Below, one piece after another: positions 24,601 through 61,495 of a stretch of 64,000 nt of DNA; the stretch's first letter is position 1, and every line of letters begins with the position of its first letter. A program made the position numbers and the translations under genes. Origin of the DNA: Spinacia oleracea (Eukaryota > Streptophyta > Magnoliopsida > Caryophyllales > Amaranthaceae). The notes under the pieces were generated by a model. The model searched no databases and had not been told where the DNA came from. It was given only the letters and a program-made list of their open reading frames with translations. Location of the stretch: the NCBI RefSeq assembly GCF_020520425.1, contig NC_079491.1, positions 7,117,143-7,181,142 of the forward strand. Reading direction: 5' to 3'.

Positions 24601-25610
24601 ATAAATCTGTGAGTTAAGAGTCGTGTCAAGTATCGAGTCTGTCTCCATGACTACTTGTTTATTAAATGGCTTTTGCATGTGGACTATTGTTATTAATTCA
24701 AGTGAAGCATGTTAGGATAGATTGTTATTCTAGCTTGTTCGTACTCAGCTTTTGCTGACTTCGTGCTTCATGTCTTTCGGTTATGGCCTTCGCCTTAATG
24801 ACCCTATGATGATCCATCATAGTTTGTTCCTGTTTGTCTATTCGGGACGGGGCAGGCAGCCCACATTGCACTTGCGTTGTTGGGGAGTAGTTTTCAATAA
24901 GCAGGTTCGTATAGATAACTTGCGGGAGAAGTTATCATGGGAATTGTATTGAGAGACTATTTAATCTTCCGTATTTATAAACTCTACTTTCATTTTAGTC
25001 ACGACTACTATAAATATTTAAACTATCGTTAATGGGTTTTAAACTACTTAATGCTTTGGTTTTGGGCCTTAATGGTTCCAGTTTGTTAAGAGACCATTAA
25101 CTATTTAATGTGTTTCGAAAGTTAGTTATTTTCGCTGCATAATTCTGGTAAAAGCCTTAGCCGTTATCACTGTGGCGGTAATACCTTGATAATTCTTTTA
25201 TTTAGTCGGAAAAAGAGAATTATAAATTATAAGGAATTATCAGGGTGTTACATCATGTCCAGAACAGAACAGATATGAACAAATCATGTCCAGATCATAA
25301 TTGATCTTTAGAGATAATATCCAGATCAGAACTTATATGTTTAGGTCTATCTAATATAAAGAATAGTTAAATCATGAGCAATTGTCAAATAAATATTAAC
25401 AATATTATAAATTTGTGTAACATTTATTTTACACGTAAGTCATTTAATATAGATTTTTGTTTAAACTTAATTATGAAGAATCAGATCAGATTAGATCAAA
25501 AAAATAAGTTAAGGTCAGATCAGATCAGAAAAACTAAGTTCAGGTCAGATCAGATCAGATTAGACCAGACCAGATCAGATCATGAGAAATAAGGTGAACT
25601 AAATAGGGCC
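21516..25610. mobile_element. PIF/Harbinger-like element, nested (level 2)
   Basis: Termini GGCCCTGTTTATTTCACCTT and (inverted) GGCCCTATTTAGTTCACCTT, TAA duplication at 21513-21515 and 25611-25613. The interior, apart from the LTR, is about 1.1 kb of AGATCAGAACTGATCTGTAC-like words plus an (ATT)n run at about 21576-21643. Non-autonomous. Confidence 0.8.
22257..25252. mobile_element. Large solo LTR, about 3.0 kb, nested (level 3)
   Basis: Begins TGTAATACC and ends GGTGTTACA (the usual TG..CA inverted ends), with near-matching 5-bp flanks TCATA (22252-22256) and TCATG (25253-25257). No internal retroelement region and no polyprotein domain recognised. The size suits a Ty3-type family with long LTRs; superfamily uncertain. 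It contains a GC-rich, C-rich stretch (about 22680-23100) after a (CT)n tract, unlike the AT-rich surroundings. The diverged flank suggests an older insertion. Confidence 0.7.
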
Positions 25611-52218: not shown

Positions 52219-52849
52219 TTTCTCTGTTCTATGGAATATGCAATTGGACCTGCAACTTCGTTTTTTGGCGCGGAAATGTTTGGGGAAGGAAGGTGGCGGA
52301 AGTGGAGGGGAGGCTGTGTGAGAGTGTGATTCGAGCTTGAAGGTTTGCGGAGAGGGGGAGGCACAAATTAGAAGTGCATCCGTTGTATGCAGTTCGTTTT
52401 TTATGGCTTAAAATTACATTCTAACGATTTAAAAGCACATTAACGATTTAAAAGCAGGTGATCATGGTAATCATGTACCCATGGGTGATTATTTAGTCTA
52501 GACTTAAGATTTAAGATTTTATTTAGTCTATCATCCATGTGCAACATTTAAAACGTAAATGCAGTACAAAAAATCCTAAATGCAGAATTATTTAATGATT
52601 TTAAAAACAAAAGAAAGACAAAAATATCCTTTAAAATTTTAATAGCCTCCAAAACAAATATAGGAAATCCTTCATCAATACGATGCTAGTCCGCTAGTCG
52701 CCTCTTATTACTGCTCAATTCTCATTCATCTCCTTCCTTGGTTTTTCACCTTCTAGACTCCATTGATGCTTCCTTGAAGGTATATCATATCTTCCTAAAC
52801 TAATGGGCAAGGTTTCCGGCAGCTAAATTTGGGTGCCGCATTTGTTATC
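52219..52849. other. RRP40 promoter region
   Basis: Right of the ATG is a 150-bp leader-like stretch. At 52377-52460 lies a fragment resembling the TIR element of RRP40 intron 2 (gatttaaaagcacattaacg), then unremarkable sequence. Confidence 0.5.
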
Positions 52850-53240
52850 TGGCGGTCTAGTTAGGGTGCCGGAAAATACTTCCTGCGCTGTGTTTACGCT
52901 GCCAAATATTTTTTCCGGTGGTCTAGTTCGGGTGCCGAAAAATACTTCCGGGGCTGCGTTTATGGTGCGGGTTTTTTTTTTCCGGAGGTCTAGTTAGGGT
53001 GCCGGAAAATACTTCCGGTGCTGCGTTTATGGTGCTTGATATTTTTCCGGCGGTCTAGTTAGGGTGCCGGAAAATACTTCCGGCGCTGCGTTTATGGTGC
53101 CCGATATTTTTTCCGGCGGTCTAGTTAGGATGCCGGAAAATATTTTCGGCGCTGCGTTTATGGTGCCGGCTATTTTTTCCACCGATCTTGTTCGGGTGTC
53201 GCATCTAACATCCGACGGTCTCGTTCGGGTTCGTTTTATA
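52850..53240. repeat. GC-rich 66-bp minisatellite, about 5-6 units
   Basis: GGTCTAGTTxGGGTGCCGG recurs at 52854, 52920, 52987, 53052 and 53118 (period 65-67), each followed by AAAATACTTCCGGxGCTGCG and a TTTATGGTGCC block. Degenerate at the right edge. Small open frames within it are a by-product of the period. Confidence 0.9.
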
Positions 53241-54628: not shown

Positions 54629-56415
54629 TATTTGATGTAAATTGAACAATTTAATTGCATGAGAACTACTGCATACTACATACGGAGTATATTTATTCAG
54701 AATCTTTTCTGTCAGACCGCCTGACGGCCACGCGCCTGTCAGACGGCCTCTTTACCCACGCGCGCGTGATATCACGCGCATAATAAAAAGCATTTTCATT
54801 TCTCTCTCCTGCTCATTTCTCCTCTCTCTCCCCTCTCCTCGTCTCTCCCCTCTCTCCTGCTGGTGCACTCCTCTCTCCTCTACTCGCTCCTTTAGTCCTC
54901 TCTCTCACCGGAGACAACCATCACCATGTAGGCAGGTTCCGTTCCTCTGCTAAAATTCCAAAGAAAATAGACGATGGAGGTGCGATGCTGGTATGGCTGC
55001 TACATCGATCTCATCGCCGACATCCCTCCCTTATCAAATTCGTCGGCGATCTTTCTTCCTCCTCAAGCTCAAGCTCAGCGACGATCTCCACCATCTAATT
55101 ATCGGACATTATTATGGTAGAGTTTTTTAATTTTGATTTTGATTTAGGTTTTTTTCATATTCAATTTCACACTCAAATCGCAGATATAGGGTTTCGTTCC
55201 TTCGCATATATCTTAGGTCTCTTAATTACGCTGATTTAGTTGATATTATTCATTCGAATATGCATGAAATTATTGATTAAATTTATAGTTTAGTTATCTC
55301 TTGTTAATTTTAGTCTGACTTGTGATACTTTAGTATGTGGCATGCTTAGTTATGAATTAAATTAGTTAATGATTTCTTATATTTAGTTATTTATTTGGTG
55401 TGTTTAGTTTTCAGATATGAATTAAATTAGTTGATTAATGGTCATATTTAGTTAAGAATCTGCTTTGTTTAGTTAAGATTTGGGGGAGCTGTGGTTAGAC
55501 TTTAGTCTAGTTATAAGGATAAAATTCTACTGTATTTGGTGGATCGATATGATTGTTTATCAGCGAAAGCTGAAGAAGAAAATTAAGCTAAATCAGTGGC
55601 TTAAGGATTTAATTCTTTGGGCTTACTTTCTGAATTATTGGTTTGCTTAAACATAATTACTCTATATTATACTTGAGTATTTATTTTCATTATATGTTAT
55701 TAGGACGCAGGTCTAATTTACACAATGCTGCTGGTTTGATTCCAGTTGGTGTAATAGGCAAGAGGTACATTTTTATTCATAGGGAGAAATTGTGCCTTCT
55801 TCCGTATGGGTTCACCTAAAAACCTTACGGTTCTTACCCTTTGCTTCTTATATCCTATGTTTCTTTAGGATCTTGCAGTGGACATGGTGCTTACTTTAGG
55901 ATTAGTGACTTGAGAGTTCTGATATCTGTTGGCTTAAGAGTTCTAATATCTGTTGAAAATACCAACCTCTGATAAACATGTTCGATGTCATTAGCTACCA
56001 ATTCTATCACAAGATTAGTGTTAATAGTTTCTGAAATCCCAAAGGAAAATGAATTAGGCCCTGCACCCTGTATGCATTTTCAGTTAATGAGAGACTGTGG
56101 CAATAGTTTTGCAGATAAATATGAAATGCAGAATCTGTCAGCTCAACGTAACTGAAACTGTAACTACATCAGCCATCTTACGGAGATTAGCTTGGAGTCC
56201 TTTTGACTATTGCAGCTTATGCTTGATTCTGGTTGCAATTGATTGTGCTTATATTCATTTGTCTTTTAGAGGTATTGTAAAATAAACATGGTAGTTATGA
56301 TAAAGTTTGTTTTAGTTAGGATTAAGTTTGTACATTGAGTTTCCATTCAGCTCTGGTGGGAAGTTACACACTCTGTGTATAAGAAAGAAGCGTTGGTGAA
56401 GCCAATTGCAGACAA

Positions 56416-56656
56416 TTGTCAGAGCTCTTGTACAAAGAGACTGTCAAAAACTACTGGAAGACAATTGCAGAGCTCATTCCTAACGAAGTTCCTGCTTTAG
56501 TTCAGAAAAGAGGGAAGAAAGAACAGGAAAAGAAGCCTTATACTGCTGTGATCCAAAAGACCAAAGCCTGGGAGGTCGACTGGTCTTGCAAGGATGAGAC
56601 AGATACTAATTAAGCTTAAACACACTACTCCCAAGCACCTAGTACTGGTTGACTAA
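56416..56656 (+). pseudogene. Captured clathrin light chain fragment inside a Mutator-like element
   Basis: The frame from 56416 encodes [20 protein letters not shown] then [16 protein letters not shown], the conserved C-terminal block of plant clathrin light chain. After VIQ one extra base shifts the frame; in the +1 frame the family sequence resumes as [22 protein letters not shown] and ends at a stop at 56654-56656. The N-terminal and central coiled-coil parts are absent, so this is a gene fragment, with no sign that it is expressed. It lies about 1.7 kb from the left end of the element at 54698-61451, the arrangement expected of gene capture by a Pack-MULE. Confidence 0.85.
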
Positions 56657-57004
56657 TGTACATTTGTTGATCTCATTAAATATATGCCCTTTTAGTTAAG
56701 AATTGTACGGAGTATTATTTTAGTCATACTTTTGTTATATTTAGTTAAGAAATAAAATGATATAGTTACATTTAAGTCAATTATTGTATTAGTTATACTT
56801 TTGTTATATTTAGTTAAGAAATAAAATGATTTAGTTGAATTTTTCTCCATTTTAGTTTTATTGTCTTATTTATAATTAAATTAGTTTTAGTTAAGATTAA
56901 TATGTTTTAGTTAAGATTAATATGTTTGCCTTTGGGCTGCTTTTGGTCTTTTGAATTGTAAAAAACTTTGTTGGTTAATGTAATATAATGCTAGGATTAA
57001 TCAA

Positions 57005-60000
57005 TTTAATCTTAACTAAAACACGATAATTCTTAACTAAATCTAAGAAAATCTTAACTAAAACGTATAAAATCTTAACTAAACTTAGAAACACGTAACT
57101 AAAACTTCTGAAATCATAACTAAAACCCCGAAGATCTTAACTAAAACTTCTGAAATCATAACTAAAACTCCAAAATCTTAAATAAAACTTCTAAAATCAT
57201 AACTGAAACTCAAAAATCTTAACTAATAAGTTACAATGCTTAACTAATCGTACTTATTACTTAACTAATCGTATTTATTACTTAACTAATTGGTTTTAAT
57301 AAGCAACTAATCGATTTCATTGCTTAACTAATTGTTTCGATTGCTTAACTAATTGGTTTTATTGTTTAACTAATTAATTCCAGTGTTTAACTAATTGGTT
57401 CAGTTGCGTAACTAATTGGTTCAATTGTTTAACTAATTGAATTCCAAACTTAACAAATACTCCCTTGCTTCACTAACTAGTTCCACTGTTTAACTGATTG
57501 GTTTCAGTGCTTAACTAATTGGTTCAATTGCTTAACTAATAGATTACATTGCTTAACTAATTAGTTACATTGCATAACTAATTGGTTTATTTGCTTAACT
57601 AATTAATTTAAGGCTTAACTAATTTATTCATTTGCTTAACTAATTGAATTTTATGCTTAATAAATACTTTTTTTTACTGAACTAATTGGTTCAGTTGCGT
57701 AACTAATTGGTTCAATTGTTTAACTAATTGAATTCCAGACTTAACAAATACTCCCTTGCTTCACTAATTAGTTCCACTGTTTAACTGATTGGTTTCAGTG
57801 CTTAACTATTTGGTTCAATTGCTTAACTAATTAGTTACATTGTATACCTAATTGGTTAATTGGTTTATTTGCTTAACTAATTAATTTAAGGCTTAACTAA
57901 TTTATTCATTTGCTTAACTAATTGAATTTTATGCTTAATAAATACTTTCTTTTTTTACTGAACTAATTGGTTCAGTTGCTTAACTAATTGGTTCAATTGT
58001 TTAACTAATTAATTCAAATGCTTAACTAATTAGTTCGATTGATTAACTAATTAATTCCAGTGCTTAACTAATTGGTTTCATTGCTTAATTAACTAATTGG
58101 TTCAAATGCTTAACTAATTAGTTCGATTGATTAACTAATTGGTTCTATTACTTAACTAATTGGTTACATTGCATAACTAAGGTTTTTTTGCTTAACTAAT
58201 TAATTTAAGGCTTAACTAACTTATTCATTTGCTTAACTAATTGAATTTTATGCTTAATAAATACTTTTTTTTACTGAACTAATTGGTTCAGTTGCGTAAC
58301 TAATTGGTTCAAATCCTTAACTAATTAGTTCGATTGATTAACTAATTAATTCTAGTGCTTAACTAATTGGTTTCATTGCTTAACTAATTGGTTCAAATGC
58401 TTAACTAATTAGTTCGATTGATTAACTAATTGGTTCTATTACTTAACTAATTGGTTGCAGTGCTTAACAAATTGGTTCTGTTGCTTAACTAATCGGTTTC
58501 GTTGCTTAACTAATTGAACTTCAAACTTAACTAATTGGTTCCATTTCTTAACTAATTGGTTCTATTACTTAACTAATTGGTTCTGTTGCTTAACTAATTG
58601 GTTCCGTTGCTTAACTAATTGGTTCCGTTGCTCAACTAATTGAATTTCAGGCTTAATTAATTGGTTCTATTGCTTAACTAATTGGTTATATTACTTAACT
58701 AATTGGTTCTATTACTTAACTAATTGGTTCCAGTGCTTAACTAATTGGTTTTGTTGCTTAACTAATTGGTTTCATTGCTTAACTAATTGGTTTCATTGCT
58801 TAACTAATTGGTTCAAATGCTTAACTAATTGGTTCCATTGCTTAACTAATTGGTTCTATTACTTAACTAATTGGTTCTGTTGCTTAACTAATTGGTTCTG
58901 TTGCTTAACTAATTGGTTATGTTGCTTAACTAATTGAATTTCAAGCTTAACTAATTGGTTTCATTGCATAACTAATTGGTTCTATTACTTAACTAATTGG
59001 TTGTAGTGCTTAAAAAATTGGTTATGTTGCTTAACTAATAGGTTCCGTTGCTTAGCTAATTGAATTTCAGCCTTAACTAATTGGTTCCATTGCTTAACTA
59101 ATTGGTGCTATTACTTACCTAATTGGTTCCAGTGCTTAACTAATTGGTTATGTTGCTTAACTAACTGGTTTCATTGCTTAACTAATTGGTTCAAATGCTT
59201 AACTAATTGGTTCTATTACTTAACTATTTGGTTCCATTGCTTAACTAATTGGTTCTATTATTTAACTAATTGGTTCCATTGCTTAACTAATTGGTTCTAT
59301 TACTTAACTAATTTGTTCCAGTGCTTAACTAATTGGTTCCAGTACTTAACTAATTGGTTCCAGTGCTTAACTAATTGGTTTCATTACTTAACTATCTGAA
59401 TTCAGTGCTTGCCTAATTGATTCCATTGATTAACTAAACGATTTCATTGATTAACTAATTGGTTCTATTGCTTAACTAATTGGTTCTATTGCTTAACTAA
59501 TCGGTTCTAATGTTTAACTAATTAGTTACAATGCTTAACTAATTGATTCTATTGATTAACTATTTGGTTTCTATGTTTAACTAATTGGCTGCATTGCTTA
59601 ACTAATTGGTTTCATTGCTTAACTAATTAGTTTTAATGGCTTAACTAATTAGTTTCAATGCTTTACTAATTAATTTCAATGTTTAACCATTTGGATCCAG
59701 TGCTTAACTAATATGTTCTAATGTTTAACTAATTATTTCCATTGCTTAACTAATCAGTTACATTGCTTAACTAATTAGTTACATATTTAACTAATTGATT
59801 CTATTGCTTAACTAATTGGCAGCATTGCTTAACTAATTAGATTTAATTGCTTAACTAATTGGATTTCATTGATCAACTAATTAGTTTCAATGCTTAACTA
59901 ATTGGTTTCATTACTTAACTATTTGGATTCAGTGCTTACCTAATTGATTCCATTGATTAACTAAACGGTTTCATTGATTAACTAATTGGTTCTATTGCTT

Positions 60001-60470
60001 AACTAATTGGTTCTATTGATTAACTAATTAATTAGTTAAATATTAGTACTATTTAGTTGGGCAATGAAACCAATTAGATAATCAACGGAATTAATTAGTT
60101 AAGTACTAAAACCAATTAGTTTAGCACCAAAATAAATTAGTTAAGCAATGGAAATAATAAGTTAACCGATATAAGTAGAGTATTTTTTGTTAGTTAAGCC
60201 AACTAAAACATCGATATTCTCAACTAAAACAAAATAACCTTAACTAAAACAAAAATAGTCGTAACTAAAACAGAATTTTTTTTAACTAAAACGTCATTAT
60301 TCTCAACTAAAACAACTTTACCTCTAACAAAAGGAATTTCTTCTTAACTAAAAGTAAATTATTCTTAACTAAAATAGAGTATTTCTTAACTAAAATGAAA
60401 TTATCAAAACTAAAACAAACATATTCTCAACTGAAACAAAATCAATAACGTAACTAAAACAAAATTGTTC
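57005..60470. repeat. 21-bp satellite array and its degenerate margins
   Basis: The core unit CTTAACTAATTGGTTCxxTTG (21 bp) repeats from about 57240 to 60030, roughly 130 units by length. Margins 57005-57240 and 60190-60470 use the shorter theme CTTAACTAAAAC. Between 60040 and 60180 the polarity is reversed (ccaattagttaagcaatgg). Higher-order structure is visible: gcttaataaatact recurs at 57654, 57933 and 58252, and a block at about 59380-59500 recurs at about 59905-60025. Stop codons occur in several frames of each unit, so it is not coding. Confidence 0.9.
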
Positions 60471-61495
60471 TGACCTAAATCTAATTAAAATAACAACAAC
60501 AACAATGTTCGTCCGCGGCCACCAGCAGGGACTAGCGCAGCGACCGCGAGACTGTTCATTCGCGATTGAAGTCACCGATTGCTTCTGCATCAATTCGCGA
60601 CATTGAATCTGGTAACTTTGATGTCCGCCAGCTATTTCTTTCGCTTCTTTTCGAGCAACATCAAACTCGTGGCTCGCCTCTACTACCACCGCAATCGACT
60701 TTTGTTATTTGACCCAGTCGCACCACCACAGTCGCCCTATCATTCCGTTGAAACTTCGCCTTCCCTAGCCGCACCTCCATAATCGCCCTATCATTTCACC
60801 ACTGCGAGATTGAGCCTCATTGACGGTAATTTGACTACCGTGGAAATCACCTAGACCACATCAAAAATCAATCAAATCAAAATCACAAAAAATGAAAAAA
60901 CAAAAACCTAATCTAATTCATTCTAATCGTATAAAAAACTAAATGAAATCAAAAACAAAAATTAAAATTAAAATCAAATTAAAAAAACTCAAAATAAAAA
61001 TCCTAAAACTATTCACCATCAAGAATAACAACATCAACCAAAGCAGTAGAGTAGAGGAACAACAATAACGACCAAACAACCAATAAATCTCAAGAAGAAT
61101 TGAGGAATAGAAGATTTACCTCATTTATTGACACAACACGAGGAAGTGGACAACGGGAAAGAAGAGGAACTGGACAGCGGCGGCGACGAGGAAGTGGACA
61201 TCGGCGGCGATGAGGTCTGGACGGGCGGCGGCGATTAGAGTAGGGGAGAGACAGAGAGTTTGAGGAGAGAGAGGGGCAGAGGGTTGCGAAGAGAGAGGAA
61301 ATGAATTACCGATTTGAAAATGGAAAAATGACCTGCAAAAACAGAATTTATACGCGACCCGGTAAAACTACCCACGACCCGCGAACTGACCCGCGACACA
61401 CCCATGGGTGGGTGGTCTGACCGGTCAGACGGTCGTTTTAAAAAATTTGTAATATTTATTGGATCACATACTTACAAACTAAAGATTGCAAACTA

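Follow-up and report, generated by a model that had tools for sequence, protein, structure and literature searches.

A likely nonautonomous Mutator-like transposon family of Spinacia oleracea, most members of which carry same-orientation arrays of an 8-bp core

Mutator-like elements are described as leaving target-site duplications of 8-11 bp, and some of them are of the non-TIR type (PMC6446971). The same account includes Rehavkus, relatives of Mutator found in arthropods and annelids that have a PHD-finger transposase (PMC6446971). In the VANDAL elements of Arabidopsis, the target arrays of VANC are reported to serve as a docking platform (PMC5735166, PMC10398659). As far as the cited parts of this literature go, tandem repeats in Mutator-related or foldback elements are already known, as is gene capture by MULEs.

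We analyzed a stretch of 64,000 nucleotides of S. oleracea DNA, which we call the window. An earlier note, made from the sequence of this stretch, had proposed that it contains a gene-capturing Mutator-like element with a 3-kb satellite. The element, its boundaries and its captured gene piece are as follows.

54689..54697, no strand: left target-site duplication, ATATTTATT, an exact 9-bp match to 61452-61460
54698..61451, + strand: the element in full (6,754 bp), which has four near-identical sisters, delimited by its ends and the 9-bp duplications
54715..54726, + strand: terminal block GACCGCCTGACG, at offset 18 from the 5' end, an offset equal to that of the inverted 3' block
54760..54935, + strand: CT-rich left arm, 72% C+T
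56432..56646, + strand: captured, frameshifted fragment resembling the last exon of a clathrin light chain gene, 90.7% identical to C1:111057405-111057618
61131..61330, - strand: right arm, CT-rich in the opposite orientation to the left arm, 24% C+T on the + strand
61423..61434, - strand: terminal block GACCGTCTGACC, at offset 18 from the 3' end, placed by alignment of the ends
61452..61460, no strand: right target-site duplication, ATATTTATT, an exact match to the left copy

Two of the proposed boundary features hold as they were described: the 9-bp target duplication is perfect on both sides, and CT-rich arms are present at both ends, the low C+T content of the right arm being CT-richness of the other strand. 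The termini had also been said to align without gaps from the first base. Their alignment is indeed ungapped, but the first base differs, and only 18 of 32 positions match between the 5' terminus (CAGAATCTTTTCTGTCAGACCGCC) and the reverse-complemented 3' terminus (TACAAATTTTTTAAAACGACCGTC). Much of this match consists of the block GACCGYCTGAC, which lies at offset 18 from both ends. Within the 64-kb window, a profile of the 3' ends finds the reverse-complemented 5' end at E = 0.0027, compared to E = 0.017 for the next, unrelated place, so the inverted relation of the termini is supported but weak.

To find other copies, we searched the element's own genome assembly (894 Mb, 242 contigs) with its first 203 and last 222 bases. 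The family counts given here are lower bounds, because the best 40 of 136 and the best 40 of 75 candidates were scored; six large contigs are represented among the matches. Sister copies sharing both ends, which the earlier note had looked to the host genome for, were found: at least five places (the window copy and four sisters) match both ends at 99-100%. These five copies range in length from 6,648 to 7,313 bp, and each sits in its own 9-bp duplication, which in the sister L012 matches at 8 of 9 positions. Among the gap-free columns that differ between the five, 152 of 160 are private to one copy. The window's subfamily has thus amplified in a star-like manner, which suggests one burst. One of the sisters, L009, has a 555-bp insert at the equivalent of window position 60848 that is absent from the other four copies.

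The sister L011 sits in a high-copy repeat with 2,779 first-look candidates. When its flanks were joined with one copy of the duplication, the best 40 of the 2,779 all matched across the junction at 91-98% identity (among the 54 rows of this search, 13 are short pieces that stop short of the junction, and another crosses it at 83%). A copy of this abundant short repeat, the target of L011, is located at C1:127843760-127844030 (L046). Aligned base by base to the flanks of L011, L046 has a single TTATTAAAA at the junction. The earlier note had envisaged an empty site with a single copy of the duplication at an orthologous locus in a related accession. The base-exact empty site found here belongs to the sister L011 and is paralogous, lying elsewhere in this genome. 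Insertion, seen directly for this sister, is precise and is accompanied by a 9-bp duplication.

The frameshifted clathrin light chain fragment is also real, and its homology lies inside the interval originally proposed (56341-56660), although it is narrower, at 56432-56646. It matches the last exon of the gene at C1:111057405-111057618 over 215 bp with one gap, and its frame departs from that of the gene after ...AVIQ. We call the parent gene clathrin-light-chain-like because its exon-like frames resemble plant clathrin-light-chain sequence. Pfam has no match for the captured piece, nor for the last exon of the gene by itself. A second gene-like locus, L040, matches the fragment at 86%, and related pieces occur in L013 and in six places that have a common two-piece pattern. 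One of these six, L039 (C4:5310500-5315500), combines the family's 5' end, arrays and a clathrin-light-chain-like fragment. L039 and the five places patterned like it appear to be another element type that carries the fragment, with a 5' end known from L039 alone. The simplest account would be one old capture followed by diversification, and the captured piece is probably carried along as a passenger.

The search also found more distant relatives, with 71-92% identity. In a consensus of ten aligned members, the common 5' end resembles CAG(T/C)AAGTTTTGTGTCAGACCGCCTGACGG and the 3' end resembles GTCAGACGGTCTTATTGAAAAATTTGTA. Terminal inverted repeats are long in many Mutator-like elements and absent from non-TIR MULEs; within each of ten members here, the two ends match one another at 15-21 of 32 ungapped positions. 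A 9-bp duplication lies exactly at the predicted ends in 13 of the 15 members with paired ends (perfect in 10 of them, with 8 of 9 positions matching in the other 3). The exceptions are L014, which has a one-base indel in its duplication, and L027, which is without an intact 5' end. A sixteenth member, L047, has both ends and an 8-bp repeat at a CAT-rich site.

An autonomous Mutator-like element would be expected to encode a Mutator-type (DDE) transposase. No transposase was recognized in the frames of most fetched members, which were inspected by eye, or in four frames of L041, which were compared to Pfam. Of the long frames in fetched members, some look Copia-like and the others are unassigned. 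The four L041 frames had no match to DUF1985 or DUF287, and the plant mobile domain and others appeared at sub-threshold scores only. The locus L041/L042 (C5:36936950-36947880) is a 10.8-kb inverted duplication, with main arm pieces that are 92-96% alike, 3'-type ends on both sides and arrays of type D (see below). We considered it as an autonomous element and rejected it, as none of the four frames compared to Pfam matched a transposase and no clear duplication lies at its ends. A 16-kb member, L036/L037 (C5:88486000-88502300), was rejected as well, since it is a family member split by a nested retrotransposon that looks Copia-like.

Much of the window element consists of short tandem repeats, laid out as follows.

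55346..55477, - strand: first cluster of inverted core motifs (TTAGTTAAG, at most one mismatch), left arm
56692..56915, - strand: second cluster of inverted core motifs, left arm
57008..57226, + strand: type B 21-bp array, unit TTAACTAAAACTTCGAAAATC
57218..60029, + strand: type A array, in which the 21-bp unit TTAACTAATTGGTTTCATTGC is repeated 134.5 times
60032..60198, - strand: short block of inverted units, with five inverted motifs (at 60032, 60095, 60116, 60137 and 60190)
60200..60460, + strand: type C array, measured against the unit TTAACTAAAACAGAATTTTTC, which TRF gives for this array in L011

Array types B, A and C adjoin each other and have a period of about 21. The array at 57008-60029 occupies 3,022 of the 6,754 bp, or 45%, in agreement with the earlier estimate of about half the element. 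The left arm contains 11 inverted core motifs, compared to a mean of 0.84 and a maximum of 4 in 200 single-base shuffles. We rejected the idea that the array encodes a protein: its open frames are 97 and 111 amino acids long, and the longer one has no Pfam match. All listed gaps of at least 15 between sisters in 57218-60029 are multiples of 21, and such changes by whole units probably reflect slippage or unequal exchange. Elsewhere in the window are a 66-bp tandem repeat (52832-53198, 5.6 copies), whose unit has inverted CCGGAAAATA-like segments by eye, and a 30-bp minisatellite (25480-25582) with a unit like that printed for the beet repeat BvMSat07, 28 of 30 positions agreeing by eye (PMC2820488).

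The array is present in all five sister copies. Arrays were found in 16 of the 19 loci fetched by the 5' end, 4 of the 16 being sisters of the window copy; no array lies in the stretches fetched for L020, L021 and L026, and that of L024 is short and over 5 kb away from the 5' end. Relative to the 5' end, the main array has the same orientation in all 16 array-bearing loci, inverted motifs being a minority. A short inverted block precedes the main array in most of these loci, but not in L014 or L019. Since arrays occur in diverged members and in one orientation, we regard the array as a feature of the family rather than something picked up by one element. This changes the earlier reading of the 3-kb satellite, and we rejected its chance acquisition by a single element. 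The suggestion that the element is a source from which the satellite spreads stands insofar as the array reached new sites along with the sisters.

What the arrays have in common is the 8-bp core TTAACTAA, which recurs with four different spacer types (A to D), mostly at 21-bp spacing. The consensus units share this core and differ in their 13-bp spacers, of which A and B agree by eye at 3/13 positions, B and C at 5/13, and A and D at 6/13. Type D occurs only in L041/L042. The list of consensus units was pre-filtered for the core. In unfiltered TRF output for 11 members, 48 of 68 rows contain the 8-bp core, 6 contain its inner 6 bp and 14 contain neither; among rows scoring above 250, the core is present in 15 of 15. 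In all 18 arrays chosen from the core-filtered list, identity is higher in the core (88-98%) than in the spacer (74-85%). Positions 9, 10 and 14 of type A are kept as well as the core, so the conserved word does not coincide exactly with these 8 bp. The pattern indicates that a word is kept, rather than the unit.

We consider it likely that these loci represent a family of nonautonomous Mutator-like DNA transposons, in which most of the members seen have built-in arrays of TTAACTAA in the same orientation. The earlier classification of the window element as a gene-capturing Mutator-like element agrees with the 9-bp duplications, the sisters and the captured gene piece, and the label "Mutator-like" itself is based on duplication length and end structure. 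Members of the family would very likely be moved in trans by a Mutator-type transposase. The lack of a recognized transposase, the weakly inverted ends and the lack of core constraint among sisters weigh against this best explanation. The first two of these points would suit an element of some other superfamily or mechanism that leaves 9-bp duplications; we find this quite improbable, as the duplications in 13 of 15 members, the gene piece and the degenerate ends fit Mutator-like elements. It is slightly more improbable still that the arrays belong to an independent genomic satellite, into which elements jumped or from which unrelated elements took up pieces on several occasions. Exact matches to a 34-bp dimer pattern number 493 (252 + 241; 0 for a reversed control), an abundance that would be expected of such a satellite. 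Among the 100 dimer places listed, 96 are on contig C1, in 27 clusters (counted as places more than 10 kb apart), none of them wider than 6 kb. We looked at 10 of the 27, and 9 were tied to an element end. That only these 9 of the 27 listed clusters are so tied, and that no element end was found at L045, a short array, would likewise be compatible with an independent satellite. L045 is one of four further loci that were hand-picked by array alone from C1 clusters without a known end, mostly large ones. The long arrays among them do have element ends: L043 is bounded by both ends with a duplication, L047 has both ends, and L044 has a 5' end only, within the fetched stretch. An independent satellite also does not explain why, in diverged members, the array is found inside the duplicated boundaries and in a single orientation.

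A more serious alternative, which we rate at not quite an even chance, is that slippage in an ancestral element gave rise to the array as a neutral minisatellite, perhaps comparable to the one mentioned for Rehavkus (PMC6446971), which was then carried along, such that the shared core reflects common descent only. A raw comparison of the five sisters seems to contradict this idea, with 15/878 core and 64/1,400 spacer columns polymorphic (p = 0.0002), but the difference is due to columns close to gaps, in which there was exchange or misalignment of units. Away from gaps, 14/686 core and 25/1,094 spacer columns are polymorphic (p = 0.87), so no core constraint was detected among these sisters, and we rejected recent purifying selection on the core. 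Point differences in the array away from gaps likewise match those in the rest of the element (40/1,808 versus 77/3,672), and the array's gaps come in whole units, both as expected of a neutral minisatellite. However, descent combined with turnover of units should not spare particular positions, yet the core exceeds the spacer in each of the 18 arrays, types A to D retain the core while their spacers differ, and inverted motifs are enriched outside of the arrays as well, in the left arm. This long-term retention of the core favors a role. The lack of constraint among sisters does not contradict a role in the case of nonautonomous copies, but neither does it support one.

As to what this role might be, the array could tentatively be viewed as a docking platform for a protein encoded by an element or by the host, by analogy to the target arrays of VANC in VANDALs. 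Docking or anti-silencing as the array's role in this family is a guess. A broader scenario, which we consider unlikely, is that this is a plant Mutator lineage outside of the crucifers with a genome-wide anti-silencing system, in which a VANC-like factor would recognize element-borne TTAACTAA arrays and which would have evolved independently or been retained since a deep split. Because 21 bp corresponds to two helical turns, the phasing of the arrays would make all sites face the same side of the double helix in this scenario, and nonautonomous copies would compete by array length.

Among the open-licence papers listed in our searches, judged by titles and the beginnings of abstracts, we found no published description of this family. 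If the core is a binding site, the family offers a natural series of motif arrays that vary in length and spacer within one genome, and the dependence of sequence-specific anti-silencing or transposase recruitment on motif density would be directly testable. With a neutral array, the family would still clearly exemplify how transposition disperses a minisatellite, one copy having an empty site resolved to the base, and it may explain short dispersed arrays that surveys of repeats would count as separate satellites.

The following comparisons refer to the published descriptions in the parts cited. The family resembles Rehavkus in its 9-bp duplications and in having a minisatellite before the 3' end, but Rehavkus has animal hosts and a PHD-finger transposase, whereas the present family is found in a plant and no transposase was recognized (PMC6446971). 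VANDAL non-TIR MULEs share with it degenerate ends and noncoding, fast-changing tandem repeats in which a short motif occurs densely in one orientation. However, the VANC21 motif is YAGTATTAY, as opposed to TTAACTAA, and VANDALs carry a VANC gene (DUF1985, DUF287), of which there is none in the four L041 frames (PMC5735166, PMC10398659). The Tetris foldback transposon of Drosophila virilis is also nonautonomous and has internal tandem repeats that are able to seed satellites; its repeats are about 220 bp long and lie within inverted repeats, whereas here the units are 21 bp and mostly on one side (PMC4079207). The beet repeat BvMSat05 is likewise a variable 21-bp minisatellite with head-to-head junctions, although its unit sequence is another one and the cited description does not present it as part of an element (PMC2820488). 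Identity with SpSat01-21, a published 21-bp satellite of Spinacia, was rejected because the printed unit differs (PMC7840529). Pack-MULEs, finally, are similar in that a fragment of a host gene lies inside a nonautonomous MULE-type element, and the window element differs from those described in that a motif array makes up 45% of its length (PMC13317346).
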